From a virus, in IMG/VR virus record IMGVR_UViG_3300025168_000245, positions 1 through 37,262 of that record: 37,262 bases of DNA. One strand, written 5' to 3'. Positions 7,302 through 37,262 of this stretch are shown piece by piece. Under the pieces are notes generated by a model that saw only the letters and a list, made by a program, of their open reading frames with translations, was not told where the DNA came from and did not search any database. Made by a program: the position numbers and the translations under genes. Every line of letters begins with the position of its first letter. Position 1 is the stretch's first letter.

Positions 7302-8423
7302 ATGCCTGATAATTCTTATGGTTTTGACCCCAGTGTTTTTGACGACGCACTAGAAAGAGAAAAGATTAACGCTGCCGCTGAAGGCATGAATGTTCCGGGT
7401 TTCCCTTGGAACCATCCCGCTGTTAAGTTTGCTAAATGGTACATAGATAAGTTTGGACACGGCGGGCCGAAGGGCTCTGAGTCCTGGATTAATCACGGCG
7501 CTGATTATACTGCTGCCAAAGACTACGCTACCGCTGGTACCGACGACAGCGCTGGTACAGACAGTGACGCTGATGTGCTTGCTGGTTACGCAAACAGTAA
7601 CACAGTAACAAACGACACAGTAACAAACGACACAGTAACAAACGACACAGTAACAAACGACACAGTAACAAACGACACAGTAACAAACGACACAGTAACA
7701 AACGACACAGTAATAGATGAAATAACTGTTGTTGCCAAACCCCCTAGCGGAATAGGTCAAGTTGGAGAGTTGGTCAGGTGGGCAGGTATTGTATACATCT
7801 ATGATGCCCTTGGAGGGTGGATACCGAGCCCCGATCCTTTACACAACCCCCCAATGGAAGAAACAACCGTTACAGGTAAGATTCCCGAGAAAGCGGACAT
7901 ATTGGGTGGCCTCGAAAGTCTTCTTGGAATGGGTATAGGCCTTGACGCCCTAAAAGAAATGGTCGCTAACATGTCTAATAGCGGCTCTGGTAATGAAGAC
8001 AACTGGTTTGATAAATTAATTGATTTAGTAGCAGCAAAAAATGCTTATGAAGAAGGGTATAAGTACGAGGTTCCGACTGGGCAAATGGCCTCACAAAGCG
8101 AGATAGGAAAACAATGGGGACTGCCTTCTAAAGAAGACATGGTTATGCAAGGAATGGGTCCCAATTATCTTCAGGACCAACAATACGTATTGTCAAAAGG
8201 GACAACAATGCCCGCAGCCACACACGTTTCTGGCAACCCTTTATTAAAAGAAATTGAAGGAGGCAAACAAGGTGGTATCATGGGACTTAAGAGTCATGGG
8301 GACATTACCCCTGCGTTCCTTGAACCAGGAGAGTTTGTGTTTACCAAAAAAGCAACGGATAATATGGGTGCGAAAAGATTGTATAAACTAATGCAACAAG
8401 CAGAACAAATGGGGATGAACTAA
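7302..8423 (+). CDS. Virion protein with TVTND pentapeptide repeats (373 aa)
   Basis: Residues about 101-135 are seven perfect copies of the pentapeptide TVTND, encoded by a 15-bp tandem repeat (7602-7706). The preceding region is Asp/Ala/Thr-rich. The C-terminus carries GGIMGLKSHGDITPAFLEPG followed by EFVFTKKAT, a motif (PAxLxPGEFVxxKKA) that recurs at the ends of phage tail-region proteins, including some tape measure proteins. It lies one base after the preceding gene, and its stop overlaps the next ATG. The exact role is unknown. Confidence 0.7.
   Translation: MPDNSYGFDPSVFDDALEREKINAAAEGMNVPGFPWNHPAVKFAKWYIDKFGHGGPKGSESWINHGADYTAAKDYATAGTDDSAGTDSDADVLAGYANSNTVTNDTVTNDTVTNDTVTNDTVTNDTVTNDTVTNDTVIDEITVVAKPPSGIGQVGELVRWAGIVYIYDALGGWIPSPDPLHNPPMEETTVTGKIPEKADILGGLESLLGMGIGLDALKEMVANMSNSGSGNEDNWFDKLIDLVAAKNAYEEGYKYEVPTGQMASQSEIGKQWGLPSKEDMVMQGMGPNYLQDQQYVLSKGTTMPAATHVSGNPLLKEIEGGKQGGIMGLKSHGDITPAFLEPGEFVFTKKATDNMGAKRLYKLMQQAEQMGMN
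7602..7706 (+). repeat. Seven perfect 15-bp tandem repeats (ACAGTAACAAACGAC)
   Basis: Seven identical copies of ACAGTAACAAACGAC lie end to end and encode TVTND seven times within the 373-aa virion protein; an eighth, diverged unit follows (TVIDE). A multiple-of-three unit keeps the frame whatever the copy number. Confidence 0.95.
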
Positions 8424-24857: not shown

Positions 24858-26300
24858 ATGAAGAACTACGTATACCAAACCGAACCCTATAAGCACCAAG
24901 AAAAAACACTGCGACGATCTGCACACCGTAAGGAATTTGCACTTTTTTTAGAGATGGGACTGGGCAAGTCAAAGGTTTTATTGGACAACGCCGCCATACT
25001 TTACGAAGCGGGGAAGATTGATGCACTATTAATTGTAACACCGAAAGGAAATCTCCGAAATTGGGACAAACTAGAAATACCCAGGCATTTGCCAAGCAGA
25101 ATCCCTACCTCTGTGTTGGTGTGGCAACCGAACCACACACAAACATGGAAGCGGACCTATTGCGAAATGGTTTTAGAAGAACACCCCGAAAGATTGGAGA
25201 TTATGACCATGAATGTTGAATCGTTCAGTACGGAAAAGGGGCAAAAGTTTGCCAAAGCGTTTATCTTGGCGCACGAGACTATGTTGGCGGTCGATGAGAG
25301 TACCCTTATAAAGAACCCCAAAGCCAAACGAACAAAAAACCTACTCGCATTGTCGAGAGATGCAGTTTATAAAAGAATACTGACAGGCTTTCCGGTGACC
25401 AAAACGCCTCTTGATCTGTATTCACAGTGCGCCTTTTTAAACCCTTTACTGTTGGGCTTTAAAAGTTTTTACGCTTTCAAGGCACGGTATGCGATCACCA
25501 AGCAAAGACGTCTCGGCTCGCACAGCTTTGAAGAAGTGGTCGGCTTTCATCGAACGGAAGAACTGCAAGAACTATTAAAGGAGTTCTCGGTCCGCTATAC
25601 CAAGGACAAGTGTCTTGATCTTCCCGAGAAAGTTTACATGAGAAGAGAGGTGGAACTGACTAAGGAACAGAAGAAGGCCTACGAACAGATGAAAAAAGAA
25701 GCGCTGATGGTACTGCGAGACGAGGTGTATACCACCCAAACTGTGCTGACTCAGTTGATGCGCTTGCAACAGGTGGTCGCGGGCAGTCTGCGTTCGCCAA
25801 GCGGAGAGTTGGTACTGCTTCCCAACAACCGCATTAAAGAAACGTTGAGCGTATTAGAGGAGGTCTCGGGTAAGGCGATCATCTTTGCCGTGTTTCAAAC
25901 GGACATAGAAGCGTTGACCAAGGCCATCGCTGAGGTTTATGGGGAAGACAGTGTGGCTTCCTACTATGGAAAGACTCCCAATGGGGAAAGGGAGAGAATC
26001 TTGGAGGATTTTCAGGACAAGAACAGTCCATTGAGGTTTTTTGTTTCCAACCCGCACACAGGAGGGCGTGGTCTGACGCTTACAGAGGCAAGCTACATGA
26101 TTTTTTATTGCAACAGCTATGATCTTGAGTTGCGGATTCAAGCAGAAGACAGGATCCATCGTATTGGCCAGGACAAAAGTTGTACTTATATAGATTTGGT
26201 CTGCCCTGGGACCATAGATGAGAAGATTTTAGAGGCACTTAAGAAAAAGGTTAGTATTTCAAACAAAGTTTTAGGAGAAGTAAAAAAATGGTTCGAGTAA
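24858..26300 (+). CDS. SNF2/DEAD-type superfamily 2 helicase
   Basis: 480 aa. Motifs in order: Walker A EMGLGKSK (32-39), Walker B DEST (146-149), motif III LTGFPVTKTPLDLYSQ (175-190), motif V TGGRGLTLTEA (401-411) and motif VI QAEDRIHRIGQ (428-438), the last typical of SNF2 proteins. These are ATP-driven DNA translocases that remodel protein-DNA complexes or branched DNA; several phages carry a single-domain version for replication or recombination. It is divergent from the replication operon, sharing a 109-bp control region, and overlaps the next gene by 13 bp. Confidence 0.92.
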   Translation: MKNYVYQTEPYKHQEKTLRRSAHRKEFALFLEMGLGKSKVLLDNAAILYEAGKIDALLIVTPKGNLRNWDKLEIPRHLPSRIPTSVLVWQPNHTQTWKRTYCEMVLEEHPERLEIMTMNVESFSTEKGQKFAKAFILAHETMLAVDESTLIKNPKAKRTKNLLALSRDAVYKRILTGFPVTKTPLDLYSQCAFLNPLLLGFKSFYAFKARYAITKQRRLGSHSFEEVVGFHRTEELQELLKEFSVRYTKDKCLDLPEKVYMRREVELTKEQKKAYEQMKKEALMVLRDEVYTTQTVLTQLMRLQQVVAGSLRSPSGELVLLPNNRIKETLSVLEEVSGKAIIFAVFQTDIEALTKAIAEVYGEDSVASYYGKTPNGERERILEDFQDKNSPLRFFVSNPHTGGRGLTLTEASYMIFYCNSYDLELRIQAEDRIHRIGQDKSCTYIDLVCPGTIDEKILEALKKKVSISNKVLGEVKKWFE

Positions 26301-26569
26301 AGAAGAAAGAGAAGAGAACGGCTCAACTTAACATTCGCATGACCGAGGAAGAGAAGAAACGATTGGACGTTTTGTCTCATCACAGTTGGCGTAGTTCAAG
26401 TGAGTATGTCAGAAGACTTATCAACCGTGATTGGAACCGGTTAAAGAAAATTGAGGGCGCGGCCAAGGCGAACGAGTGGTTTGAGTTGTTCTCTCAGCCT
26501 GGTGCCAAGGATGCTTGGGAAGATTTTCTTAAAGACGGCGACGTGGACATGATTAAATTCAAAAAATAG
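26288..26569 (+). CDS. Ribbon-helix-helix (CopG/Arc-type) transcription regulator candidate
   Basis: 93 aa. Residues 11-48 give a clear ribbon-helix-helix pattern: strand TAQLNIRM, helix TEEEKKRLDVLSHHS, turn WRSSSEYV, helix RRLINRDW. The C-terminal half (AKANEWFELFSQPGAKDAW and an acidic end) could be an effector or oligomerisation part. It starts inside the helicase gene by a 13-bp overlap and lies immediately upstream of a promoter that carries the TATGGGA element. This makes it the best candidate in the window for the regulator of those promoters, but this is inference. Confidence 0.8.
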   Translation: MVRVKKKEKRTAQLNIRMTEEEKKRLDVLSHHSWRSSSEYVRRLINRDWNRLKKIEGAAKANEWFELFSQPGAKDAWEDFLKDGDVDMIKFKK

Positions 26570-28656: not shown

Positions 28657-29157
28657 ATGACAAAAGGTGTATCTAACAACCCATCAGGGAAAAAATGGCT
28701 TACCGATAATCAAAAGAGGTTTGCCAGGGAACTCGTTTACAATGATGGAACAAAAACAAAATCCGAGTGTGCTGTTTCAGCGGGCTATGCAAAAGGAAGT
28801 GCGGGAGTAAAAGCGGCTGAACTTACTAACCCAAGAAAATACCCACTTGTTGTCAGGTACATACAAGAACTCGAAAAAGAGGTCCAGTCTAAATATGATG
28901 TGACTTTTGGCAGACACATAAGAAAACTTGCAGAAATAAGAGACCAGGCAATAGAAAAAGGCAACTTGACCGCCGCTGTTTCCGCTGAAGTGCAAAGAGG
29001 GCGTGCGGCTGGAATATATGTGGAACGAAAAGAAATCAGAACTGGGACGCTTGAGGCCCTGTCAGAAAAACAGCTCAGGGAAAAAATAGATGGCTTGCTT
29101 GCTGACTATAAACCCTTGATAGAAGCCGAAGAAGCTGTTTTTGAGGAAACAACATAA
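28657..29157 (+). CDS. terS: Terminase small subunit
   Basis: 166 aa. The N-terminal region KKWLTDNQKRFARELVYNDG, TKTKSECAVSAGYAKGSAGV and KAAELTNPRKYPLVVRYIQELE is the typical helix-turn-helix DNA-recognition domain of small terminases. A central helical part and an acidic C-terminus (ALSEKQLREKIDGLL) follow, fitting oligomerisation and large-subunit contact. It selects viral DNA for packaging. It stands alone: no large subunit follows. No clear ribosome site precedes the ATG. It ends 2 bp from the convergent minus-strand operon, without an evident terminator. Confidence 0.85.
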   Translation: MTKGVSNNPSGKKWLTDNQKRFARELVYNDGTKTKSECAVSAGYAKGSAGVKAAELTNPRKYPLVVRYIQELEKEVQSKYDVTFGRHIRKLAEIRDQAIEKGNLTAAVSAEVQRGRAAGIYVERKEIRTGTLEALSEKQLREKIDGLLADYKPLIEAEEAVFEETT

Positions 29158-29620: not shown

Positions 29621-29948
29621 TTAACCGCTCCTGTTCTTCGTACTTTTCGTATACGAAACCATAGTTTTTTCTAAAATAACGGAAAAGATTTTTGTACGCC
29701 CGTTGCCCGTGTTCTCTCCTTTCTGCACTGTTCGCATCATACAACATTCTTACAAACAACTTAAACTTGTGGTCTTTCAAGACATTAGGTGGACGGAAGT
29801 CTATTATCTTTCCATCCTTTGTTTTAAATGATTTTTCCCACTCGTTCTTTCGCCACACTTTCGTCATTTCTTGTTCCTCCGTTGTAAATGATCGCTCAAA
29901 TAACTCCATTTGTCCACTAACTGCTTGTTTTCGCTCATGTATTGTCAT
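29607..29948 (-). CDS. Charged unknown protein (113 aa)
   Basis: Rich in Lys, Glu and aromatic residues: QMELFERSFTTEEQEMTKVW, KIIDFRPPNVLKDHKFKLFV, QRAYKNLFRYFRKNYGFVYE. Mostly helical, no enzyme motif. Charge balance is more basic than its acidic neighbours, which would suit nucleic-acid binding. Overlaps neighbours by 14 bp each side. Confidence 0.6.
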   Translation of the reverse strand: MTIHERKQAVSGQMELFERSFTTEEQEMTKVWRKNEWEKSFKTKDGKIIDFRPPNVLKDHKFKLFVRMLYDANSAERREHGQRAYKNLFRYFRKNYGFVYEKYEEQERLNEKT

Positions 29949-30084
29949 TTATTTCACTCTCCTCTGGTCTAGTAAGTTCGACTAACTGCCACGCTAATTC
30001 GTGAACGGATACTGGATAATCGGTATTATCCTCAAGCAAATAATTAATAGTTTCTACTACTTCTTTTATCTTTTTATCACTCAT
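29935..30084 (-). CDS. Small acidic protein (49 aa)
   Basis: Starts MSDKKIKEVVETINYLLEDN and continues TDYPVSVHELAWQLVELTRP. It fills the gap between two neighbours exactly, with overlaps of 14 and 8 bp, the same packing as the rest of the operon. Acidic and helical; function unknown. Confidence 0.55.
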   Translation of the reverse strand: MSDKKIKEVVETINYLLEDNTDYPVSVHELAWQLVELTRPEESEINDNT

Positions 30085-30268
30085 CAAGGTTCTCCTTCAT
30101 TTCTTCTGTTAAACATCTTTCTTTTAATTCTTGAAAAGTATCAAAAGCATTATGAAAAAGATCTTGGTCATTTATCCAAGCTATCAATCCTTTTCTTGAA
30201 ACTATTTGAAAACTCTCACAACTTTCATGGTTATAAAAATGTATCGGTTTAAAATCAGCTTTCATCAT
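30077..30268 (-). CDS. Small unknown protein (63 aa)
   Basis: Starts MMKADFKPIHFYNHESCESF; then IVSRKGLIAWINDQDLFHNA and a helical acidic end. ATG at 30268 or 30265, both touching the preceding stop. Not recognised. Confidence 0.55.
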   Translation of the reverse strand: MMKADFKPIHFYNHESCESFQIVSRKGLIAWINDQDLFHNAFDTFQELKERCLTEEMKENLDE

Positions 30269-30444
30269 TCACCCCCTTTGGCTTTATTAATTTTTTCAAG
30301 TAGGTTAGTTGTTTCCTCTATCTCGTCATAATCTTCGTAGTATGGCTCTCTAGCGTTTTCGACAAACTTTCGCAAGGACAAAAGCCTATCCCCAAGCGCA
30401 GTTGTTATAATCTTTTGTTCGTCTTCGTCAAACTCAATACTCAT
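30265..30444 (-). CDS. Small acidic helical protein (59 aa)
   Basis: I start it at ATG 30444, which shares a base with the preceding stop (TGATG), rather than at an upstream in-frame ATG inside the previous gene. Sequence MSIEFDEDEQKIITTALGDR, LSLRKFVENAREPYYEDYDE. Two helices with an acidic tail; function unknown. Confidence 0.6.
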   Translation of the reverse strand: MSIEFDEDEQKIITTALGDRLLSLRKFVENAREPYYEDYDEIEETTNLLEKINKAKGGE

Positions 30445-30812
30445 CACACCACCCCCAATTTTCTGTTTCGTTTGTAAACAACCCTTTCTTGTTTGGTGAG
30501 ACACCCTTCATGCACTTTATATGCACCATCTGAAAAATTGTGGTTTGCTCTGTCATCATTGTCCTCATCATAAACACAACTCGGTGTCAAATCTTCGTCT
30601 ATATAGATCATCACATCACACCTGTCACAGTCGAAACCGCTACAATCTGGACAAGCGTACCCGTCTCGATATTCGCCATCAGCGAAGATGATTTTGCCTT
30701 CGCTGTCTGTTGATTCGTAATCTGCGTCAGCACCTATTCTGTTCACAAATCGTCCACTTCCAAAAGAAGTGTCCTCCCCACAATGAACGCATCTGTTTCC
30801 TATGTCACTCAT
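30444..30812 (-). CDS. Zinc-ribbon-like protein (122 aa)
   Basis: Cysteine pairs CVHC (8-11), CPDC (54-57) and CDRC (62-65), with further Cys/His near the end, look like one or two zinc-binding sites. The N-terminal MSDIGNRCVHCGEDTSFGSG and GRFVNRIG resemble small phage zinc proteins I recall from marine metagenomes. Role unknown; possibly binds nucleic acid or a host protein. Overlaps the next gene by 1 bp and the previous by 8 bp. Confidence 0.65.
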   Translation of the reverse strand: MSDIGNRCVHCGEDTSFGSGRFVNRIGADADYESTDSEGKIIFADGEYRDGYACPDCSGFDCDRCDVMIYIDEDLTPSCVYDEDNDDRANHNFSDGAYKVHEGCLTKQERVVYKRNRKLGVV

Positions 30813-31194
30813 AGTCTGCCTCCCAAACTGTTTTTGTACTCATACGAAGTTCATCAAAACCATCATTTTTTATAACGATTTCCTTGATGTCTATCAAGCC
30901 TATAACAACATAGTTGTAGTCTGTCGGCTCACCCACAAAACCCATGTCGTGACCAATACAAGCGAGAAGAATATCGTCCAATGTTCCTTCGGTTAAATCT
31001 TCGGCACATGAGTGAATGAATCTGTCGTCAACATACTCATAGTATTCGTCCTCTTTGTCTTGTTCAGAGGCTTTTTGTTCTAGTGCCTCAAGATTACTGT
31101 TCGGCATATGTAGGAACATATTTCTGTTCCCCATTCCATACGTTTCAAATTGCGCCCAATAGGATTTTCCTTTTTCCAGTATTGCTTTACTCAT
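30805..31194 (-). CDS. Acidic unknown protein (129 aa)
   Basis: Largest of the middle operon genes. Starts MSKAILEKGKSYWAQFETYG; centre very acidic (ASEQDKEDEYYEYVDDRFIH), then TLDDILLACIGHDMGFVGEP and YNYVVIGLIDIKEIVIKNDG. An alpha/beta domain is likely, but I do not recognise it. Start/stop overlaps (ATGA upstream, 8 bp downstream). Confidence 0.6.
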   Translation of the reverse strand: MSKAILEKGKSYWAQFETYGMGNRNMFLHMPNSNLEALEQKASEQDKEDEYYEYVDDRFIHSCAEDLTEGTLDDILLACIGHDMGFVGEPTDYNYVVIGLIDIKEIVIKNDGFDELRMSTKTVWEADYE

Positions 31195-31355
31195 ATCCTT
31201 TCCCCTTCTTCATCAAACAATCCGTCAGCTTCTATGAAACCATCTTTTGCTTTCTTCAAAATCCAAGCGTACCAATTTTTCTCTATCTCTTTTATATCTT
31301 GCTCGTCAACAATCAGACTACCTAAATCTTGTGTGTATTCTTTTGGTTCACTCAT
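31191..31355 (-). CDS. Small acidic protein (54 aa)
   Basis: Starts MSEPKEYTQDLGSLIVDEQD; then IKEIEKNWYAWILKKAKDGF and an acidic end. Overlaps 4 bp on both sides (ATGA), and it fills the gap between neighbours exactly. Function unknown. Confidence 0.55.
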   Translation of the reverse strand: MSEPKEYTQDLGSLIVDEQDIKEIEKNWYAWILKKAKDGFIEADGLFDEEGERI

Positions 31356-31570
31356 GACTGCACCCCCTTATTGATGATTGAATGTATCAAATCCATAACA
31401 CCCAATCTTATGTCTGCACATTTCATAAAACTAGAATCTTCCACTCCAGTATATTTATCCACAAGACTTTCAATATCTTCTGTTAGACAAGCAAACCCAT
31501 TAGAATTAAGGGTAAGTTTTTCATCAACCTCACCTTCCTCATCTATGTAATTATCAAAGTAAACACTCAT
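31352..31570 (-). CDS. Small acidic protein (72 aa)
   Basis: Starts MSVYFDNYIDEEGEVDEKLT; middle TEDIESLVDKYTGVEDSSFM; end VMDLIHSIINKGVQS. Acidic with two Cys. Overlaps both neighbours by 4 bp. Not recognised. Confidence 0.55.
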   Translation of the reverse strand: MSVYFDNYIDEEGEVDEKLTLNSNGFACLTEDIESLVDKYTGVEDSSFMKCADIRLGVMDLIHSIINKGVQS

Positions 31571-31764
31571 AACTTTCTCCCAAAATTATTTCTTGAAAAT
31601 ACTCCCAGAAGCTCGTCCATTCTCTGTTGAATAAACCACATTCTCGGCTCAAATTGTGTGATCCCTAAATCATCAGCTTGTTTGGTTGCCTGTATTCTGG
31701 CTTGCTCAAACTGAAGGCTTTGCACCTCAAGGATTTGTTTTAGGCTGTCGGTTATTTCACTCAT
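31567..31764 (-). CDS. Small helical protein (65 aa)
   Basis: MSEITDSLKQILEVQSLQFE followed by QARIQATKQADDLGITQFEP and a helix with two Arg/Phe clusters. Probably one or two long helices; less acidic than its neighbours. Overlaps of 4 bp on both sides. Function unknown. Confidence 0.55.
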   Translation of the reverse strand: MSEITDSLKQILEVQSLQFEQARIQATKQADDLGITQFEPRMWFIQQRMDELLGVFSRNNFGRKL

Positions 31765-31940
31765 TCGGACACCCCCTCACCATATTCGAGTTTGTCGATT
31801 TCTTCCCAAACCCTTTGGATTAGATTATGTACCTCTCTGCCTTCTTCTGAATCAAAAATATATTCGGGCAGTCCATAATCAAGGTTGCTCATAGCCACCC
31901 TTAAAGGCGATTTTATTTTTTCTTCTCCACTACTCACCAT
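31761..31940 (-). CDS. Small acidic protein (59 aa)
   Basis: ATG at 31940 or the GTG one codon in (31937) both fit; the AGGAGG site spaces better to the GTG. Contains MSNLDYGLPEYIFDSEEGRE and VHNLIQRVWEEIDKLEYGEG. Overlaps the previous gene by 8-11 bp and the next by 4 bp. Not recognised. Confidence 0.55.
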   Translation of the reverse strand: MVSSGEEKIKSPLRVAMSNLDYGLPEYIFDSEEGREVHNLIQRVWEEIDKLEYGEGVSE

Positions 31941-32154
31941 TCACCTCCTCACAAATACACCCTGATTCAAATTTATCGCAGTTCCAACAACTTGACTCAT
32001 AATAAAAAACAATACTTGGCATTTTATCCCCAAGTTCTTTATCTTTTATTTCTTTAAGTTCCTCCTCAGAAAGAGTATCAGCAAATGCCCAATTAGTATG
32101 TCCATATTGGCTACTGCAAATCTCATCTATCCCTTCAGTTATGTCTCTACTCAT
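31930..32154 (-). CDS. Small Cys-containing protein (74 aa)
   Basis: Starts MSRDITEGIDEICSSQYGHT; a cluster of four Cys near the end (SCWNCDKFESGCICEE) suggests a metal site. Start chosen at ATG 32154, 8 bp into the preceding gene's end, in line with operon packing. Function unknown. Confidence 0.6.
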   Translation of the reverse strand: MSRDITEGIDEICSSQYGHTNWAFADTLSEEELKEIKDKELGDKMPSIVFYYESSCWNCDKFESGCICEEVNGE

Positions 32155-32569
32155 CAGACACCTCCTCAAGAGGAACAACATTTATCGTGTAGCCAAGACT
32201 TCGGATATGTTCTAGGGAAGATCGGCTAAGAGTTTTTTCATTAGCTTGTTTTGCAAACCCCTTCGCTCTTGAACAATGTGGGTAGCAAAGAGCGTCTGCA
32301 CGATTGTTCTTGTAATACACTTCAATATACATTTCCTCATAAGCCGAGCCATTTACAACTCCAAACAAACCTAAAAACCACTCCACTTCGTCAAGCAACT
32401 CATTGAATATGTCTTGTCCTTCTTCGGTGTAGTTAATACAGTTGTGTTCATCTTTGTAAATGCTCTCGGAATACTTTTCCCCCAACTGCCTTTGCATAAT
32501 ATCATCAGCAAATTGGCAAGTGTGTTCTATAAACTCACTTGCATCTATTTTTAGTTTAGGCTCACTCAT
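32147..32569 (-). CDS. 140-aa protein with duplicated C-terminal domain
   Basis: I start at MSEPKLKIDASEFIEHTCQF (ATG 32569, CGGAG upstream). The N-terminal half is helical and acidic. The C-terminal half, MYIEVYYKNNRADALCYPHC, then SRAKGFAKQANEKTLS and EHIRSLGYTINVV, matches the whole of the preceding 63-aa protein in order and spacing. The conserved CYPxCxxAKxFAK part may form a small metal or redox site. Function unknown. Confidence 0.65.
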   Translation of the reverse strand: MSEPKLKIDASEFIEHTCQFADDIMQRQLGEKYSESIYKDEHNCINYTEEGQDIFNELLDEVEWFLGLFGVVNGSAYEEMYIEVYYKNNRADALCYPHCSRAKGFAKQANEKTLSRSSLEHIRSLGYTINVVPLEEVSDE

Positions 32570-32570
32570 A

Positions 32571-32762
32571 TCAATACTCCGTTTTTGAATTAGGGTTGTA
32601 GGCAACAACATCTATTTTGTAGCCGAGACTTTTGATAAGGTCTAGGGAAGGCTGACTAAATGTTTCCCTACGGGTTAGTTTTGCAAACTTCTTTGCTTTC
32701 AAGCATTGGGGATAGCAAAGATCATTCCCATAAACACTTTTGTAATATACTTCTAGTTTCAT
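32571..32762 (-). CDS. 63-aa paralogue of the next gene's C-terminus
   Basis: First gene of the minus-strand operon, with ACAGGAG upstream. MKLEVYYKSVYGNDLCYPQC, LKAKKFAKLTRRETFSQ and DLIKSLGYKIDVV align one to one with the end of the 140-aa protein, so it is a tandem duplication with loss or gain of the N-terminal half. DNA similarity is also visible (GTAGCC-AGACTT, GGTTAGTTTTGCAAAC-like stretches). Function unknown. Confidence 0.65.
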   Translation of the reverse strand: MKLEVYYKSVYGNDLCYPQCLKAKKFAKLTRRETFSQPSLDLIKSLGYKIDVVAYNPNSKTEY

Positions 32763-32836: not shown

Positions 32837-32862
32837 ATATATATAACATAAAGGAGATTACC

Positions 32863-33267
32863 TTGCCAAGCCCAGAAACTAACTTTTGGAAAACAGTTAA
32901 GAAGAACCTTGTTGGTTTTAAATGGGTTAGGTTAGAATCTTGGGCTACTAAAGGTGTACCCGATTTAATGGGCTTTACGGAGACAGGAGACATCTTCACA
33001 ATCGAATTGAAGGTAGCAAAAGGTAACAAGGTTTTATTGTCTCCTCACCAGATAGCTTTTCATGTCGAACATCAAAACTCGCCTTGTTTTATCTTGGTCA
33101 AGCGTGCCTTTGACAAAGCACCCCGAAAATCTGAGGTCTACCTCTATACCGCGTCACAAGTGCGTCAGATCAGCGAACAAGGGCTTGCTGTCCTACCCAT
33201 ATACCACTCCTTGTCGCCTATTGATTGGTCTGGTGTCCGTGATGCGTTGCTCGCTACCCTTGCGTGA
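32863..33267 (+). CDS. VRR-NUC-type PD-(D/E)XK nuclease
   Basis: 134 aa from the TTG at 32863, chosen for the AAAGGAG 7 bp upstream. Active-site pattern: KGVPDLMGF (P33, D34), IELK (E48, K50) and LSPHQ (60-64, Q63), then CFILV. This is the VRR-NUC form of the PD-(D/E)XK fold, seen in phage structure-specific nucleases and Holliday junction-type resolvases; it could process replication or recombination intermediates before packaging. Its last codons and stop (CTT GCG TGA) lie in a variant of the 20-bp-period repeat. Confidence 0.82.
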   Translation: MPSPETNFWKTVKKNLVGFKWVRLESWATKGVPDLMGFTETGDIFTIELKVAKGNKVLLSPHQIAFHVEHQNSPCFILVKRAFDKAPRKSEVYLYTASQVRQISEQGLAVLPIYHSLSPIDWSGVRDALLATLA

Positions 33268-33319
33268 TACTGCTCGCGTTCCGTGCCTGTCACCCTTGCA
33301 TGATAGGTTAAGGAGAGAG
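33256..33319 (+). repeat. Repeat block 1 of the TGCATGA array
   Basis: A variant copy CCCTTGCGTGATA overlaps the nuclease stop codon, then a full CCCTTGCATGATA at 33293-33305. The 48 bp from 33272 to 33319 recur at 33944-33991 with one difference. It lies just before the first array promoter. Confidence 0.8.
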
Positions 33320-33338
33320 AATTAGCGAAAAGAAAGGG

Positions 33339-33396
33339 TTGTATTTATGGGAGTCTTAGTATAAGATAGGGGTTCAATCAATAACAGGAGAACGAA
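33339..33396 (+). promoter_or_regulatory. Array promoter with TATGGGA element (unit 1)
   Basis: TTGTAT (33339-33344), TATGGGA (33346-33352), 7 bp, TATAAG (33360-33365), then leader TTCAATCAATAACAGGAG before the GTG start. The -35/-10 spacing of 15 is short. The leader is almost identical to that of the unit at 36676. Confidence 0.6.
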
Positions 33397-33813
33397 GTGT
33401 CTAAAAGACTTACAAATAAAGAAATAAAAACAATCGCATCACGCACCGCTCAGGAGATAAAGACAGCAGTAGAAAAGAAAGCTATGAGCGAAACCGATAC
33501 GCGCACAGCAATGAATGACGCACAAGCAATACAGAAAAAAATAAAACAAGCCGAGAAGAAGACAAGCGACCTTCGTAAAGAGAAAGAAGATCTTGTTAGA
33601 GCGTTCAATGATGCCAATGATAAACTTAAAATGGAGTGGTCTTGGAACAGCGACCATAAGCCATGCATTGAACTGAACCTAGAAAGTCCCACCCATAGGT
33701 ACAATTACGGATTAGCTGACAGGCTTGAGGACGACCTAATTATAGAAATGGTTAAGCATGACCACGACTTAGAGGCGGTGCTAAAAACAATTAAGGACAA
33801 GTACCTTAAGTAA
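33397..33813 (+). CDS. Coiled-coil accessory protein (138 aa)
   Basis: GTG start placed by the conserved AGGAGAACGAA leader. Residues 1-70 are Lys/Ala/Glu/Asp-rich and helical (AQAIQKKIKQAEKKTSDLRK), probably a coiled coil. The C-terminal part has a small domain (WSWNSDHKPCIELNLESPTH; EMVKHDHDLEAVLKTIKDKY). Not recognised. It forms its own transcription unit, ending in the terminator at 33893. Confidence 0.65.
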   Translation: MSKRLTNKEIKTIASRTAQEIKTAVEKKAMSETDTRTAMNDAQAIQKKIKQAEKKTSDLRKEKEDLVRAFNDANDKLKMEWSWNSDHKPCIELNLESPTHRYNYGLADRLEDDLIIEMVKHDHDLEAVLKTIKDKYLK

Positions 33814-33892
33814 GGCTTAGCGTGCTATGTGTGTCTAGTTAGGGCGCGATTAATTGGGGCAATGAAAACACACTACAACCCCAACCACCGAG

Positions 33893-33924
33893 AACCCCCC
33901 ACAGAAATGTCGGGGGTTTTTTTT
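33893..33924 (+). terminator. Intrinsic terminator
   Basis: AACCCCC (33893-33899) pairs with GGGGGTT (33912-33918), followed by a run of eight T (33917-33924). It closes the 138-aa protein's unit. A short ACACACTA-type spacer of about 80 bp precedes it. Confidence 0.85.
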
Positions 33925-33943
33925 CGCCCGCGCTCCGCTGACC

Positions 33944-33991
33944 GCTCGCGTTCCGTGCCTGTCGCCCTTGCATGATAGGTTAAGGAGAGAG
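33944..33991 (+). repeat. Repeat block 2, 48-bp copy
   Basis: 48 bp matching 33272-33319 with a single A/G difference; contains CCCTTGCATGATA (33965-33977) and ends AAGGAGAGAG. It lies between the terminator and the next promoter. Confidence 0.85.
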
Positions 33992-34010
33992 GCAGAGGCT
34001 AAAAATAAAG

Positions 34011-34039
34011 CTGTTATGTGTCCCATAATATGGTATATT
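34011..34039 (+). promoter_or_regulatory. Array promoter, inverted half-site (unit 2)
   Basis: Extended -10 TGG-TATATT (34034-34039); weak -35 CTGTTA (34011-34016). Instead of TATGGGA the reverse complement TCCCATA (34021-34027) lies in the spacer. The leader is AT-rich and ends CAAAGGAGGGC before ATG 34090. Confidence 0.5.
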
Positions 34040-34089
34040 AAGAGAGTGAATATATTATTAAATAACCTAAAACAAAGGAGGGCATTTTT

Positions 34090-34275
34090 ATGTCTAAAAC
34101 AAAAAAACAATTAACAAAACAACAAAAAATTGACCTGTCAAGACTGGGTACTGGTGTCCGTGTTGAGATAGCAAAACTGGAAAAAGAGGGCGCGTTAAAC
34201 GATCCCCTCCGCATGGCTTACTTCTGGTTTTATTTCAACCTCTGTACAACTGATATTCTTAGGAGGGCAAAATGA
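34090..34275 (+). CDS. Small basic protein (61 aa)
   Basis: AAAGGAGG upstream of the ATG. MSKTKKQLTKQQKIDLSRLG, then helix VRVEIAKLEKEGALNDPLRM and a more hydrophobic aromatic end (AYFWFYFNLCTTDILRRAK). Two helices; function unknown. It overlaps the next gene by 4 bp. Confidence 0.6.
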   Translation: MSKTKKQLTKQQKIDLSRLGTGVRVEIAKLEKEGALNDPLRMAYFWFYFNLCTTDILRRAK

Positions 34276-34595
34276 ACCAAGAACACTACAAAAAAGACGA
34301 AATCAAAGAACACTTTGACGACTTCCTAGAAGATCACGACAAAGAATGGATAGAAGAAAACATTGACGATATCCATCACTACGCCTTCAATGAGGATTAT
34401 TACATCATTGGTTATTATCAAGCGCGGGTGTGGTGCGGTGATGAGGTGTTTAATATTATTGAAACCATACGAGAATATGAAGAGTCTAGTTTTGGTGAAG
34501 TTACTACAGATTTTTCAGACGCTGAGAAAGTGGTAAACATGTATACCTACATTGTAGGTGAACAAGTGGTTCATGACTGGCTAGAAACTAGATAA
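34272..34595 (+). CDS. Acidic conserved phage protein (107 aa)
   Basis: Strongly acidic N-terminus (KEHFDDFLEDHDKEWIEENI), then DIHHYAFNEDYYIIGYYQAR, FNIIETIREYEESSFGEVTT and VVNMYTYIVGEQVVHDW. I recall similar proteins (DIHHxxFNxDYxIIG...E..FGEV...VNMyxYIxGE) in other marine phages, without function. Coupled to the previous gene by ATGA overlap and followed by a terminator. Confidence 0.7.
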   Translation: MNQEHYKKDEIKEHFDDFLEDHDKEWIEENIDDIHHYAFNEDYYIIGYYQARVWCGDEVFNIIETIREYEESSFGEVTTDFSDAEKVVNMYTYIVGEQVVHDWLETR

Positions 34596-34611
34596 TTAAT
34601 TTTTCCTGTGG

Positions 34612-34645
34612 TCGCCTCTCTGTAATAGGGGGGGCGATTTTTTTT
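34612..34645 (+). terminator. Intrinsic terminator
   Basis: TCGCC (34612-34616) pairs with GGCGA (34633-34637), with CTC/GGG inner pairs, then a run of eight T. It follows the acidic 107-aa gene by 17 bp. Confidence 0.75.
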
Positions 34646-34671
34646 GTCCGTGTTCCGCTGTCCGCCTGTCG

Positions 34672-34737
34672 CCCTTGCATGATACTTGTCACCCTTGCAT
34701 GATACTTGTCGCCCTGGCATGACACTTGTATGATAGA
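34672..34737 (+). repeat. Repeat block 3, three 20-bp-period units
   Basis: CCCTTGCATGATA at 34672 and 34692 and CCCTGGCATGACA at 34712, each start exactly 20 bp after the last, joined by CTTGTCR; a decayed fourth copy (CTTGTATGATAG) ends the block. Lies between terminator and promoter. Confidence 0.9.
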
Positions 34738-34775
34738 TAAACCCTTGTATATCAATAACTTACAGGCCAAAGAAC

Positions 34776-34837
34776 TTGCAAAAGTATGGGAAATATGCTA
34801 TATTTAACCCACATATTAATTAAACAGGAGAACAAAT
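34776..34837 (+). promoter_or_regulatory. Array promoter with TATGGGA element (unit 3)
   Basis: TTGCAA (34776-34781), TATGGGA (34785-34791), 7 bp with TGC extended -10, TATATT (34799-34804), 17-bp spacing. Leader ATTAATTAAACAGGAGAAC to the ATG at 34838. Confidence 0.7.
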
Positions 34838-35065
34838 ATGTTAATAACAGAAGAAAACATCAACAGAGCAAGACTGCTCACACTACGCACAGCCCTTAAA
34901 CTGGAAGTGCTAGGCCTTAAAAGAGGGGGGCGTTCAGCTTATGTAATATTAAAAGATGAACTTGGCCTTAAAGGCTCAAGGGAAAGCGTACTACAACAAG
35001 TAGAGCGATACCTTGAAATGGTAGAAGAGCAGTCTATGTTGATTGATCAAGGCTTAAGCGAATAA
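34838..35065 (+). CDS. Small conserved phage protein (75 aa)
   Basis: MLITEENINRARLLTLRTAL, KLEVLGLKRGGRSAYVILKD and ELGLKGSRESVLQQVERYLE. The LITxxNINxARLLTLRxALxLExxGLKRxGRSAY pattern is familiar from phage small proteins; no function assigned. Predicted helical, single-gene unit followed by a strong terminator. Confidence 0.7.
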   Translation: MLITEENINRARLLTLRTALKLEVLGLKRGGRSAYVILKDELGLKGSRESVLQQVERYLEMVEEQSMLIDQGLSE

Positions 35066-35080
35066 GCCTCTTCACCCTTT

Positions 35081-35117
35081 CCCCTGACCTACTTGTTGTA
35101 GGTCAGGGGATTTTTTT
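35081..35117 (+). terminator. Strong intrinsic terminator
   Basis: Perfect 12-bp stem CCCCTGACCTAC / GTAGGTCAGGGG with loop TTGTT, then A and seven T. Closes the 75-aa protein's unit. Confidence 0.93.
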
Positions 35118-35125
35118 GCCTGTCG

Positions 35126-35182
35126 CCCTGACATGACGCCCGCCTGTCGCCCTTGCATGATACTTGCTACCCTTGCATGACA
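35126..35182 (+). repeat. Repeat block 4, three units
   Basis: Diverged CCCTGACATGACG at 35126, then CCCTTGCATGATA at 35150 and CCCTTGCATGACA at 35170, the last two 20 bp apart. A TGCAGCTGCA palindrome lies at 35204-35213 after the block. Confidence 0.85.
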
Positions 35183-35226
35183 GGGAAAACCAGTACGATC
35201 CGTTGCAGCTGCACCCGCAGAAATAA

Positions 35227-35290
35227 TCGACACATGGGACATGTCCCATGCTATAATAGGTACTCATTTAATCAAAACAGGAGAATTAAA
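35227..35290 (+). promoter_or_regulatory. Array promoter with perfect 18-bp palindrome (unit 4)
   Basis: TCGACA (35227-35232), palindrome CATGGGACATGTCCCATG (35233-35250), then C and TATAAT (35252-35257) with TGC extended -10. The palindrome fills the spacer (19 bp). Leader ends ACAGGAGAATTAAA before ATG 35291. Confidence 0.75.
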
Positions 35291-35599
35291 ATGACAATAA
35301 AAATAATGGATCTTAACTATAGAATAAGAGTACAAACCTTAGAGGAAGACATGGTTATCTCTATAAGTGAGCTGGATCCAAAGCTCTTCACAGATAGAGA
35401 CTGGCAAGCACTACACAATGCGATCCGTCATTACATTGATAGAGTTGAATGCGATATATGTGGAGGAGACATAGCTCCAGAGCTAACTCCTGAAGGACAG
35501 GTTTACTGGACACAAGGACACGATGCTCACCCTGTTGTTGACGGTCGGTCTTGTGAAACATGTCACACGACGAAAGTTCTTCCAGCCCGTCTCAGCTGA
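35291..35599 (+). CDS. Small zinc-finger-like protein (102 aa)
   Basis: Start set by the conserved AGGAGAATTAAA leader. The N-terminal half is a mixed domain (MTIKIMDLNYRIRVQTLEED; LDPKLFTDRDWQALHNAIRH). The C-terminal half has CDIC and CETCH-type pairs about 30 residues apart with an intervening His, which suggests a zinc ribbon. Not recognised. Single-gene unit with its own terminator. Confidence 0.65.
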   Translation: MTIKIMDLNYRIRVQTLEEDMVISISELDPKLFTDRDWQALHNAIRHYIDRVECDICGGDIAPELTPEGQVYWTQGHDAHPVVDGRSCETCHTTKVLPARLS

Positions 35600-35610
35600 G
35601 AACTAGCCCG

Positions 35611-35646
35611 ATCCCCGATCTACAGCTGTAGGTCGGGGATTTTTTT
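35611..35646 (+). terminator. Strong intrinsic terminator
   Basis: ATCCCCGATCTACAG pairs with CTGTAGGTCGGGGAT (one mismatch), followed by six further T. Lies 11 bp after the zinc-finger-like gene. Confidence 0.92.
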
Positions 35647-35673
35647 CGCCCGCTCGCCCCGATCCGCTCGCCG

Positions 35674-35706
35674 CCCTTGCATGACACTTGCTACCCTTGC
35701 ATGACA
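35674..35706 (+). repeat. Repeat block 5, two units
   Basis: CCCTTGCATGACA at 35674 and 35694, exactly 20 bp apart, joined by CTTGCTA. Followed by GGCAGAGGAGAGAG, which resembles the end of blocks 1 and 2. Confidence 0.9.
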
Positions 35707-35725
35707 GGCAGAGGAGAGAGAGTGA

Positions 35726-35788
35726 TTGACAGTTATGGGATTGTTGGTATATAATGGGCCTTCATTTAATAAATACAGGAGAATGAAA
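35726..35788 (+). promoter_or_regulatory. Array promoter with TATGGGA element (unit 5)
   Basis: Consensus TTGACA (35726-35731), TATGGGA (35734-35740), TGG, then overlapping -10s TATATA/TATAAT (35748-35755). Leader TTCATTTAATAAATACAGG before AGAATGAAA and the start. Confidence 0.8.
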
Positions 35789-35956
35789 ATGAAGAGTCTT
35801 TATTCAGAAGAACTAAGGGACTATGATAATCTACAGCTTATTCATGAAGTGCTGGGAAAACAACGAATAAGAACATTGGAAGGTAAGACAATGACCTTAG
35901 CCGAATGGCGTTTAAAAAACGGTGAACCTAAGAAATTTAAAAGGGGTGGGGCATGA
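35789..35956 (+). CDS. Small unknown protein (55 aa)
   Basis: ATG at 35789 chosen because it aligns with the start after AGGAGAAT-AAA in the sister units; an in-frame ATG at 35783 is possible. MKSLYSEELRDYDNLQLIHE, GKTMTLAEWRLKNGEPKKFK. Basic C-terminus; function unknown. Stop overlaps the next ATG. Confidence 0.6.
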   Translation: MKSLYSEELRDYDNLQLIHEVLGKQRIRTLEGKTMTLAEWRLKNGEPKKFKRGGA

Positions 35957-36123
35957 ACATAGTTAATACTTATATCTTGGTTCTGGCCACTGGCGGCGCG
36001 ATAGGCCTACCTTATGTTGCTTACACTCTATATAGACAGACCGATGTGATAATGATGGTCCTATTGACCGCCCTTCTCGCTGTGCTTTGTATGCTTGTCT
36101 CTATTGTTATATTGTTTGTATGA
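35953..36123 (+). CDS. Small membrane protein, two helices (56 aa)
   Basis: ATGA overlap with the previous gene. Hydrophobic segments about residues 4-26 (VNTYILVLATGGAIGLPYVA) and 33-55 (IMMVLLTALLAVLCMLVSIV) separated by a polar YRQTD turn. Phage-encoded membrane protein of unknown role; coupled at its end to another hydrophobic peptide. Confidence 0.6.
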   Translation: MNIVNTYILVLATGGAIGLPYVAYTLYRQTDVIMMVLLTALLAVLCMLVSIVILFV

Positions 36124-36191
36124 CGCGCCTGATTATCGGGCTTGTTATCTTCACAATCTTCTATCTAATCCCTATACTCGCGAGGGTATAG
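36120..36191 (+). CDS. 23-aa membrane peptide
   Basis: ATG overlaps the previous stop (ATGA). MTRLIIGLVIFTIFYLIPIL, then ARV: one membrane helix with Arg at both ends. Coupling and composition support it, but its size makes it tentative. Function unknown. Confidence 0.45.
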   Translation: MTRLIIGLVIFTIFYLIPILARV

Positions 36192-36194
36192 GGG

Positions 36195-36237
36195 GCGCTT
36201 GTTCCGCGTTCTCCTGTAAATTACAAGGGACAAGCGC
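36195..36237 (+). other. Hairpin ending at the next promoter's -35
   Basis: GCGCTTGTTCC (36195-36205) pairs with GGGACAAGCGC (36227-36237) with one G-T pair. It replaces terminator and repeat block before this unit; there is no T-run. The last base abuts TTGACA. Confidence 0.6.
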
Positions 36238-36300
36238 TTGACACATGTATGGGATCTATGGTATATTGGTGGTTCATTTAATAAATACAGGAGAATTAAA
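36238..36300 (+). promoter_or_regulatory. Array promoter with TATGGGA element (unit 6)
   Basis: TTGACA (36238-36243), TATGGGA (36248-36254), 7 bp with TGG, TATATT (36262-36267); spacer 18. From TTGACA through the ATG, 66 bp, only two bases differ from the unit at 37031. Confidence 0.85.
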
Positions 36301-36549
36301 ATGAACCAATTAGAATTAAACCTAGACCCAACAAGGAAACTACCCTTCGGTTGTAAAGTAATAGACAAAGAACCAAAGGAAGTAGCTAATCCCTATTCAG
36401 GTGAAACAGTCCTACTTGAGCCCGATGCGATAGCAGTCTATGACACAATCAAAGGAGCAGAATTGTTTGAGCAATATGATCTAGTTCGTAAAGGATTGGA
36501 TTGGTTCAAGGAACATGAACCAAAGGCTTACATGGTTTTGTTAGACTAA
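36301..36549 (+). CDS. Small conserved phage protein (82 aa)
   Basis: MNQLELNLDPTRKLPFGCKV, VANPYSGETVLLEPDAIAVY, DTIKGAELFEQYDLVRKGLD and WFKEHEPKAYMVLLD. The NPYSGExxxLEPxAxAVYDxIKGxE...GLxWFxxxxPKAYMVLLD series is one I have seen in marine phages; no function is known to me. Single-gene unit with a strong terminator. Confidence 0.75.
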   Translation: MNQLELNLDPTRKLPFGCKVIDKEPKEVANPYSGETVLLEPDAIAVYDTIKGAELFEQYDLVRKGLDWFKEHEPKAYMVLLD

Positions 36550-36561
36550 CTGACTAGCCCT

Positions 36562-36595
36562 AAGCCCCCACATCTATCAAGGTGTGGGGGCTTTT
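36562..36595 (+). terminator. Strong intrinsic terminator
   Basis: 11-bp perfect stem AAGCCCCCACA / TGTGGGGGCTT with a 10-nt loop, then TT and C. The T-run is short but the stem is strong. Confidence 0.85.
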
Positions 36596-36612
36596 CTTAT
36601 GCCTGCCTGCCG

Positions 36613-36645
36613 CCCCTGCATGACACTTGCTACCCTTGCATTACA
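36613..36645 (+). repeat. Repeat block 6, two units
   Basis: CCCCTGCATGACA at 36613 and CCCTTGCATTACA at 36633, 20 bp apart, joined by CTTGCTA. Lies between terminator and promoter. Confidence 0.85.
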
Positions 36646-36675
36646 TACAGCAAAAAAGGCCCAAAAATCAAGGAT

Positions 36676-36732
36676 TTGACACTTATGGGACACATGGTAT
36701 AATAGGGTTTCAATCAATAACAGGAGAACGAA
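36676..36732 (+). promoter_or_regulatory. Array promoter with TATGGGA element (unit 7)
   Basis: TTGACA (36676-36681), TATGGGA (36684-36690), 7 bp with TGG, consensus TATAAT (36698-36703); spacer 16. Leader TTCAATCAATAACAGGAG as in unit 1. Confidence 0.88.
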
Positions 36733-36912
36733 ATGGAAACGAAAATTCCAGAAATTCCAAACTACAAACTTCGACCATTCAAACAGGCATTTCGCAATGC
36801 TTGGGCCAGGGGTGCTATAGAGGAGGGTGAGTCGTGGATGTATATTTACAGCGACAACGAGTTCGACCACTTCAAGCACAACATCTATCGTTGGACCAAA
36901 GTTCCTTACTGA
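36733..36912 (+). CDS. Small unknown protein (59 aa)
   Basis: Start set by AGGAGAACGAA. METKIPEIPNYKLRPFKQAF, RNAWARGAIEEGESWMYIYS, then DNEFDHFKHNIYRW. Aromatic-rich, mixed charge; function unknown. Single-gene unit followed by a terminator. Confidence 0.65.
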   Translation: METKIPEIPNYKLRPFKQAFRNAWARGAIEEGESWMYIYSDNEFDHFKHNIYRWTKVPY

Positions 36913-36923
36913 CGGGCCTTTCG

Positions 36924-36959
36924 ACCCCCGCACTTTTTCGGAGGTGCGGGGGTTTTTTT
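36924..36959 (+). terminator. Strong intrinsic terminator
   Basis: ACCCCCGCAC (36924-36933) pairs with GTGCGGGGGT (36944-36953) and is followed by six more T. Lies 11 bp after the 59-aa gene. Confidence 0.92.
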
Positions 36960-36987
36960 CGTCTGTTTTTGGCCCTTTCGCTCGCCG

Positions 36988-37000
36988 CCCCTGCATGACA
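36988..37000 (+). repeat. Repeat block 7, single unit
   Basis: CCCCTGCATGACA, one copy. A 7-bp inverted repeat TGCGTCA / TGACGCA follows at 37020-37038, overlapping the next -35. Confidence 0.8.
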
Positions 37001-37030
37001 CGCCATAACACAATAGGACTGCGTCACTAC

Positions 37031-37093
37031 TTGACGCATGTATGGGATCTATGGTATATTGGTGATTCATTTAATAAATACAGGAGAATTAAA
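37031..37093 (+). promoter_or_regulatory. Array promoter with TATGGGA element (unit 8)
   Basis: TTGACG (37031-37036), TATGGGA (37041-37047), 7 bp with TGG, TATATT (37055-37060), then the TTCATTTAATAAATACAGG leader. Nearly identical to unit 6. Confidence 0.82.
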
Positions 37094-37262
37094 ATGAACA
37101 AAACTGAAACAACTATAAAATCATTATTAAGAACGCTTTTAGAAAAGTCTGAGAAGGAAGGACTAAAGTTCAGATTCAATATGCAAATTGTAGAGGATTG
37201 GGGAGGCATACCTGAAAAAAGAGAATGGGGATATGACATAGATCAACTCATTGAAGATTTGC
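37094..37262 (+). CDS. Unknown protein, 3' truncated by window edge
   Basis: ATG placed by the shared AGGAGAATTAAA leader. Visible part starts MNKTETTIKSLLRTLLEKSE and continues KEGLKFRFNMQIVEDWGGIP; helical then mixed. The end is outside the window. Function unknown. Confidence 0.6.
   Translation, partial: MNKTETTIKSLLRTLLEKSEKEGLKFRFNMQIVEDWGGIPEKREWGYDIDQLIEDL

Follow-up and report, generated by a model that had tools for sequence, protein, structure and literature searches.

We suggest that an array of tiny genes at the right end of a 37,262-base viral fragment (IMG/VR record IMGVR_UViG_3300025168_000245; the whole fragment is referred to below as the window) is a bank of early accessory genes. 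The array comprises eight consecutive units on the + strand, 3' of a nuclease-like gene. In this model, to which we assign a probability of about 0.68, the accessory island between the nuclease-like gene and terL is made up of tandem, insulated and co-regulated cassettes. Host sigma70 RNA polymerase would read each cassette from its own promoter, probably early, while one regulator, likeliest the phage's own Arc-like ribbon-helix-helix (RHH) protein acting as a repressor, would switch the whole set via the site TATGGGA/TCCCATA. Strong terminators would isolate the cassettes from each other as well as from the downstream late genes. The linkers (terminator, repeat, promoter and leader) would provide the homology through which single cargo genes are gained, lost or exchanged by recombination while their expression stays intact.

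In each unit, a sigma70-type promoter lies 20-50 nt 5' of an AGGAG-type leader and a start codon, and such promoters precede all eight unit-first genes (Table 1). On a scale with a maximum of 12, the promoters of units 1-8 score, in order, 7, 8, 9, 11, 12, 11, 12 and 10, while most of the remaining 40 genes in the window score 5-8 and one reaches 11 (Mann-Whitney p = 1e-4). An earlier reading of the window (the original prediction) had described eight units with a sigma70-like promoter and an AGGAG leader, and these scores confirm that description. It had also called the leader conserved: a leader of the AACAGGAGAA type does recur, in families D4, D5 and D8, but that of unit 2 (AAAGGAGGG) is unlike the others. 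Similarly, the proposed content of one to three genes of 23-138 amino acids (aa) per unit holds with the qualification that the 23-aa gene is an open reading frame (ORF) only.

Of the seven complete units (unit 8 is truncated by the window end), six have a strong intrinsic terminator at their end. All six terminators lie between units, with folding energies of -14 to -26 kcal/mol, and the five strongest hairpin-plus-T sites on the two strands of the window are among them. These properties argue against an ordinary early operon, in which internal promoters would be redundant, terminators leaky and the insulation without functional meaning. Such an operon would fit the two units with two or three genes and the one complete unit without a strong terminator, but the architecture is kept in many divergent relatives and we consider this explanation very unlikely.

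TGCATGA-type repeats of the CCCTTGCATGA type are found in the array, and neither elsewhere in the window nor on its other strand. They lie mostly between a terminator and the next promoter, often in tandem with a 20-nt period. As predicted, they precede promoters, in seven of eight cases, but not that of unit 6. Because the repeats are one-directional, tandem, confined to the array and adjoin terL, they could be taken for a packaging or recombination site, i.e. a feature at the DNA level in which the genes are incidental. This is highly improbable, as well-formed transcription units and repeats alternate, the proteins of the gene families are conserved from array to array, and TGCATGA repeats are missing from the more distant relatives that also have these border genes.

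What unites the units is a site that the original prediction did not mention. TATGGGA or TCCCATA is present in or beside the spacer between the -35 and -10 boxes in eight of eight array promoters, but precedes none of the 40 remaining window genes. Both orientations of the site are found in the spacer, and unit 4 has the full palindrome ATGGGACATGTCCCAT. In the group of related phages, 33 of the 38 non-redundant leaders contain ATGGGA/TCCCAT without a mismatch, as opposed to 3.3% in shuffles; with near variants of this core allowed, all 38 have it. This common operator-like site supports the predicted co-regulation of the units. Because all promoters carry the same operator, one regulator would switch them jointly.

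Table 1. Features of the array and its surroundings (positions in the window).
Feature	Position	Strand	Description
Gene for RHH protein	26288-26569	+	93 aa; candidate array regulator
Nuclease-like gene	32839-33267	+	Weak PHROG matches: helicase, Holliday-junction-resolvase; conserved 5' border of array
TGCATGA-type linker repeats	33257-36998	+	CCCTTGCATGA type; 13 copies with at most one mismatch
Unit 1	33339-33918	+	Weak promoter TTGTAT-15-TATAAG; TATGGGA at 33346; terminator 33893-33918
Unit 1 gene	33397-33813	+	GTG start; 138 aa; family F04
Unit 2	34011-34639	+	Promoter CTGTTA-17-TATATT; reversed site TCCCATA at 34021; terminator 34610-34639
Unit 2 first gene	34090-34275	+	61 aa
Unit 2 second gene	34272-34595	+	107 aa; PHROG 10208, unknown function
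Unit 3	34776-35110	+	Promoter 34776-34804; TATGGGA at 34785; terminator 35080-35110
Unit 3 gene	34838-35065	+	75 aa; PHROG 19182
Unit 4	35227-35641	+	Promoter TCGACA-19-TATAAT; spacer palindrome ATGGGACATGTCCCAT at 35234-35249; terminator 35610-35641
Unit 4 gene	35291-35599	+	102 aa; two modules
Unit 5	35726-36191	+	Consensus promoter 35726-35755; TATGGGA at 35734
Unit 5 first gene	35789-35956	+	55 aa
Unit 5 second gene	35953-36123	+	56 aa; membrane-like
Unit 5 ORF	36120-36191	+	23 aa
Unit 6	36238-36593	+	Promoter 36238-36267; TATGGGA at 36248; terminator 36562-36593
Unit 6 gene	36301-36549	+	82 aa; N-terminus MNQLELNL
Unit 7	36676-36954	+	Consensus promoter 36676-36703; TATGGGA at 36684; terminator 36923-36954
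Unit 7 gene	36733-36912	+	59 aa
Unit 8	37031-37262	+	Promoter 37031-37060; TATGGGA at 37041
Unit 8 gene	from 37094	+	Exits window

PolA of the window has 49-52% identity to that of the Pelagibacter phages HTVC023P and HTVC027P, phage 023Pt_psg01 and phage DSL-LC04, and TerL of the near relative L024 has 57-63% identity to TerL of the same four. As both proteins are nearest to the HTVC023P/DSL-LC04 phages, the phage is not a T4-type myovirus; it appears to be a marine tailed phage of the lytic type and distant kin of the HTVC023P group. Cultured phages gave no direct DNA match to the window, and a search for the host via bacterial genomes gave no TerL relative among 84,980 genomes.

The original prediction had proposed a search of related marine phage contigs for the same pattern. 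The architecture is present in independent IMG/VR contigs, and the array is, therefore, not an assembly artefact. In contigs L024 and L023/L098, the array runs on to terL, which is the 3' border of the array in relatives; in L098, the gene of unit 8 continues, and a terminator, one more unit and then terL come after it. Contigs whose TerL has at least about 88% identity to L024 TerL have the same architecture (L024, L030-L032, L037-L041, L098 and others), those with a TerL near 80% identity to it have zero to a few units, and the array is absent from the four cultured phages. Repeats of the form TGCATGA[CT] are concentrated in the linkers of array phages, i.e. the window, L030, L032, L037, L039, L040, L244, L262, L265 and L281.

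The closest comparison, between the window and L024, has about 95% identity on either side of the point where the array begins and reveals gain, loss and replacement of single cassettes. L024 has one extra unit (7348-7715) between window units 3 and 4, and the last two window units are absent from it. The first gene of unit 5 is swapped for an unrelated gene in L024: homology ends at 35793, after two bases of the second codon of the 35789 gene, and begins again at 35953, with the start codon of the gene that follows. The linker 36601-36735 extends from just past a terminator to a start codon and shares 97% identity with L024 7273-7407, a stretch that has another position in the array and precedes a gene unrelated to that of window unit 7. 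In L098, the unit-8 leader is repeated before yet another gene, and in the window the leaders of 36301 and 37094 are 97% identical, i.e. a linker has been duplicated within one array. In a comparison of 64 leaders from 66 units, in which a pair was counted if aligned over at least 50 nt, 91 of the 164 alignable pairs precede genes without detectable homology, and the best is identical at 75 of 75 positions. Because near-identical leaders precede non-homologous genes, the linkers are, judged by these alignments, constant and the cargo variable.

The order of the cassettes is fixed. In 15 arrays with 82 genes (29 families, 13 singletons), the order among families common to two arrays gave 152 concordant pairs and 0 discordant pairs. 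Free shuffling of cassettes is ruled out, because shared families have the same order in every one of these 152 comparisons, without a single inversion; to judge from gene order, the array evolves by colinear insertion, loss and in-place replacement. The prediction of individually exchangeable cassettes is borne out among close relatives, where the breakpoints fall at start codons and immediately past terminators, but does not extend to free shuffling. The original prediction had named a fixed order with no shared flanks as an observation that would speak against it; the order is indeed fixed, but the flanks are shared.

Linkers that are duplicated within one array (36301 and 37094) and found at different positions in relatives (36601-36735 and its L024 counterpart) might also be mobile themselves, i.e. 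promoter-terminator elements similar to the early-promoter stem-loop elements (PeSLs) considered below, which would have spread through the region with the genes carried along. Two observations count against mobile linkers: the shared gene families are perfectly colinear, and the window outside the array has neither a TATGGGA promoter nor a TGCATGA linker repeat. We regard this explanation as the less probable one, although it has some weight, and favor a bank of cassettes in which the linkers serve as homology for replacement.

If one regulator switches this bank, a candidate is encoded in the window. The RHH protein matches the Pfam NikA-like family at 30.3 bits (cut-off 27) and a PHROG Arc-like repressor (E 2e-4). 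Q13, N15 and R17 are invariant across seven homologues. In P22 Arc, the DNA-contacting residues are Q9, N11 and R13, to which we take this pattern to correspond. Every array contig reaching the RHH locus carries the gene (the window, L281, L282 and L294), while no homologue was detected in the long array-less relatives or the four cultured phages. Based on this co-occurrence, the RHH protein would most likely be the regulator of the array.

The site extends beyond the arrays. In HTVC023P-type fragments, inverted repeats of TATGGGA-N-TCCCATA surround the -10 box (e.g. TATGGGATATTATGATATAATATCCCATA), and an operator placed around the -10 box is typical of repressor sites. Inverted-repeat promoters of the form TTGACA-TATGGGA-TATAAT-TCCCATA lie before tiny genes near terL in the fragments L114, L156, L165, L176, L218, L222, L229, L243 and L260, and apparently these fragments have a family-wide regulon of TATGGGA promoters. 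A general scan of IMG/VR for the operator promoter returned mostly one recurrent coding stretch, which we take to represent T4-like genes and set aside; many of the other matches were HTVC023P-type fragments. The cultured HTVC023P-type phages and DSL-LC04 are without the TATGGGA-promoter pattern tested and without TTGCATGA repeats.

Instead, the protein that binds TATGGGA might be an activator or a host transcription factor, similar to the situation at MotA-type middle promoters of T4, and the cassettes would then be induced rather than repressed. Full TTGACA boxes in most units, which need no activator, and the inverted repeat over the -10 box and start region in relatives, which is typical of a repressor, make this unlikely, but not negligibly so, given the poor -35 boxes in units 1 and 2 and several relatives and the family-wide occurrence of the site, also in records without a detectable RHH homologue. 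Several observations weigh against the model of an insulated bank repressed by the RHH protein. The promoters of units 1 and 2 are weak, and unit 5 (genes at 35789-36191) has no strong terminator, only a weak terminator-like site at 36124-36144. The association of the RHH gene with the array is within one lineage and could reflect shared descent. No RHH homologue was found in the HTVC023P-type fragments with TATGGGA, which are mostly short records. In the 48-kb L050, at least one TATGGGA promoter is present but no RHH homologue was detected, so a factor other than the RHH protein may bind the site. Finally, the AlphaFold model of the RHH monomer is of low confidence (predicted local distance difference test, pLDDT, 53) and unusable.

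The cargo proteins (23-138 aa) give few PHROG matches, all of unknown function, and PADLOC gave weak matches at chance level and no convincing defence model. Their roles may be in host takeover or counter-defence. MxQLELNL or a close variant starts 16 of 66 unit proteins from at least six unrelated families; the same peptide is found in 17 of 1,654 background ORFs, nearly all in loci retrieved by that very pattern. Carriers of MxQLE[LF]N[LF] are window 36301, L030 2467 and 3595, L032 6243, L037 5641 and 6426, L041 358 and L244, and also L234, L240, L243, L238, L247 and L268; these proteins are unrelated, tiny and often CxxC-rich. Because the codons vary (CAA TTA GAA TTA AAC CTA; CAA CTA GAG CTA AAC CTA; CAA TTA GAA CTA CCC CTG), conservation is at the level of the peptide. 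In families F07, F08 and F09, one body is found both with this peptide and lacking it. The peptide resembles the N-terminal clamp-binding hexapeptides QLSLPL in Hda and QFKLPL in HdaA (PMC3836487), and we hypothesize from this likeness that it may bind the sliding clamp. Cargo can also be fused: the two modules of the unit-4 protein are separate cassettes in L032 (4415-4621 and 6243-6509), L039 and L040. A plug-in system of three modules, i.e. a common operator promoter, an exchangeable clamp-targeting peptide MxQLELNL and unrelated tiny effector domains, is a doubtful extension. If true, many different small proteins would be sent to the replication machinery under one switch. The peptide gives a testable target for some tiny proteins of the array.

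Around the array, a probable terminase small subunit gene (28657-29157) lies about 4 kb upstream, and the array splits it from terL. An adjoining block of small minus-strand genes (window 29900-32600, L024 2424-4845) is rearranged, with 30435-30812 and 30119-30261 in swapped order between the two, and is a second variable region. In DSL-LC04 (L109), the leader CATACAGGAGAAA recurs at 4391, 4620, 5206 and 6107 before several small genes 5' of terL, without TATGGGA. The array-less L057, L059 and L062 have terminator-like hairpins of repeated GCTTGCTTGTCTTT upstream of terL; in L059, GCTTGCTTGTCTTT-type sequence lies directly 5' of TATGGGA promoters.

Several phage systems share parts of this design. 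Morons of lambdoid phages are genes with their own promoter and terminator that are expressed from a repressed prophage and that one phage has where its close relative has none. Array cassettes likewise differ in presence between close relatives at a given site, as for the extra unit of L024 and the last two units of the window, and six of the seven complete units have both a promoter and a terminator of their own. However, many array units stand in tandem with one common promoter design, and the phage appears lytic. The HTVC023P-type pelagiphages and DSL-LC04 also have a region of small genes before terL, but the cultured members lack the array. In cluster K mycobacteriophages, the start-associated sequence (SAS) and ESAS place a conserved start-proximal sequence and a 17-bp inverted repeat before small genes (PMC3203893). 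The array likewise has a conserved start-proximal sequence and an inverted repeat before many small genes; however, ESAS adjoins the start-associated sequence, whereas in the window the half-site lies in the -35/-10 spacer and not as an inverted repeat beside the start, and most units have a terminator.

PeSLs of T4-type phages are mobile regulatory cassettes with an early promoter and a stem-loop terminator in the linker (Arbiol 2010 and Comeau 2014, as cited in PMC4503421). The likeness lies in composite linkers between small variable genes, with homologous linkers flanking different genes, and most array linkers have the order terminator-then-promoter. The array differs in being from a phage that is not T4-type, in its common operator-like site and TGCATGA repeats, and in reusing linkers before different genes with an invariant order (152 versus 0), whereas PeSLs shuffle. 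In the archaeal virus SIRV2, early anti-defence genes share one regulatory sequence, and the repressor Aca8 probably silences them after immediate-early expression (PMC11065993). Here, too, many single tiny unrelated genes stand behind a near-identical strong promoter sequence, as in the 91 leader pairs, and the virus encodes a DNA-binding regulator, in our case a candidate. However, the array has bacterial sigma70 promoters, individual terminators and an RHH candidate instead of a winged helix-turn-helix protein. The array may also be early and serve in anti-defence. The array belongs neither to the PeSLs nor to the SIRV2-type genes. Rather, it provides a sequence-level case of a phage outside the T4 type with a bank of replaceable accessory genes, in which the switches are constant, the cargo is variable and the order is fixed. 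As for archaeal viruses, the shared operator provides a handle by which genes of this kind could be retrieved from uncultured phages, with the regulatory sequence as the sole criterion.

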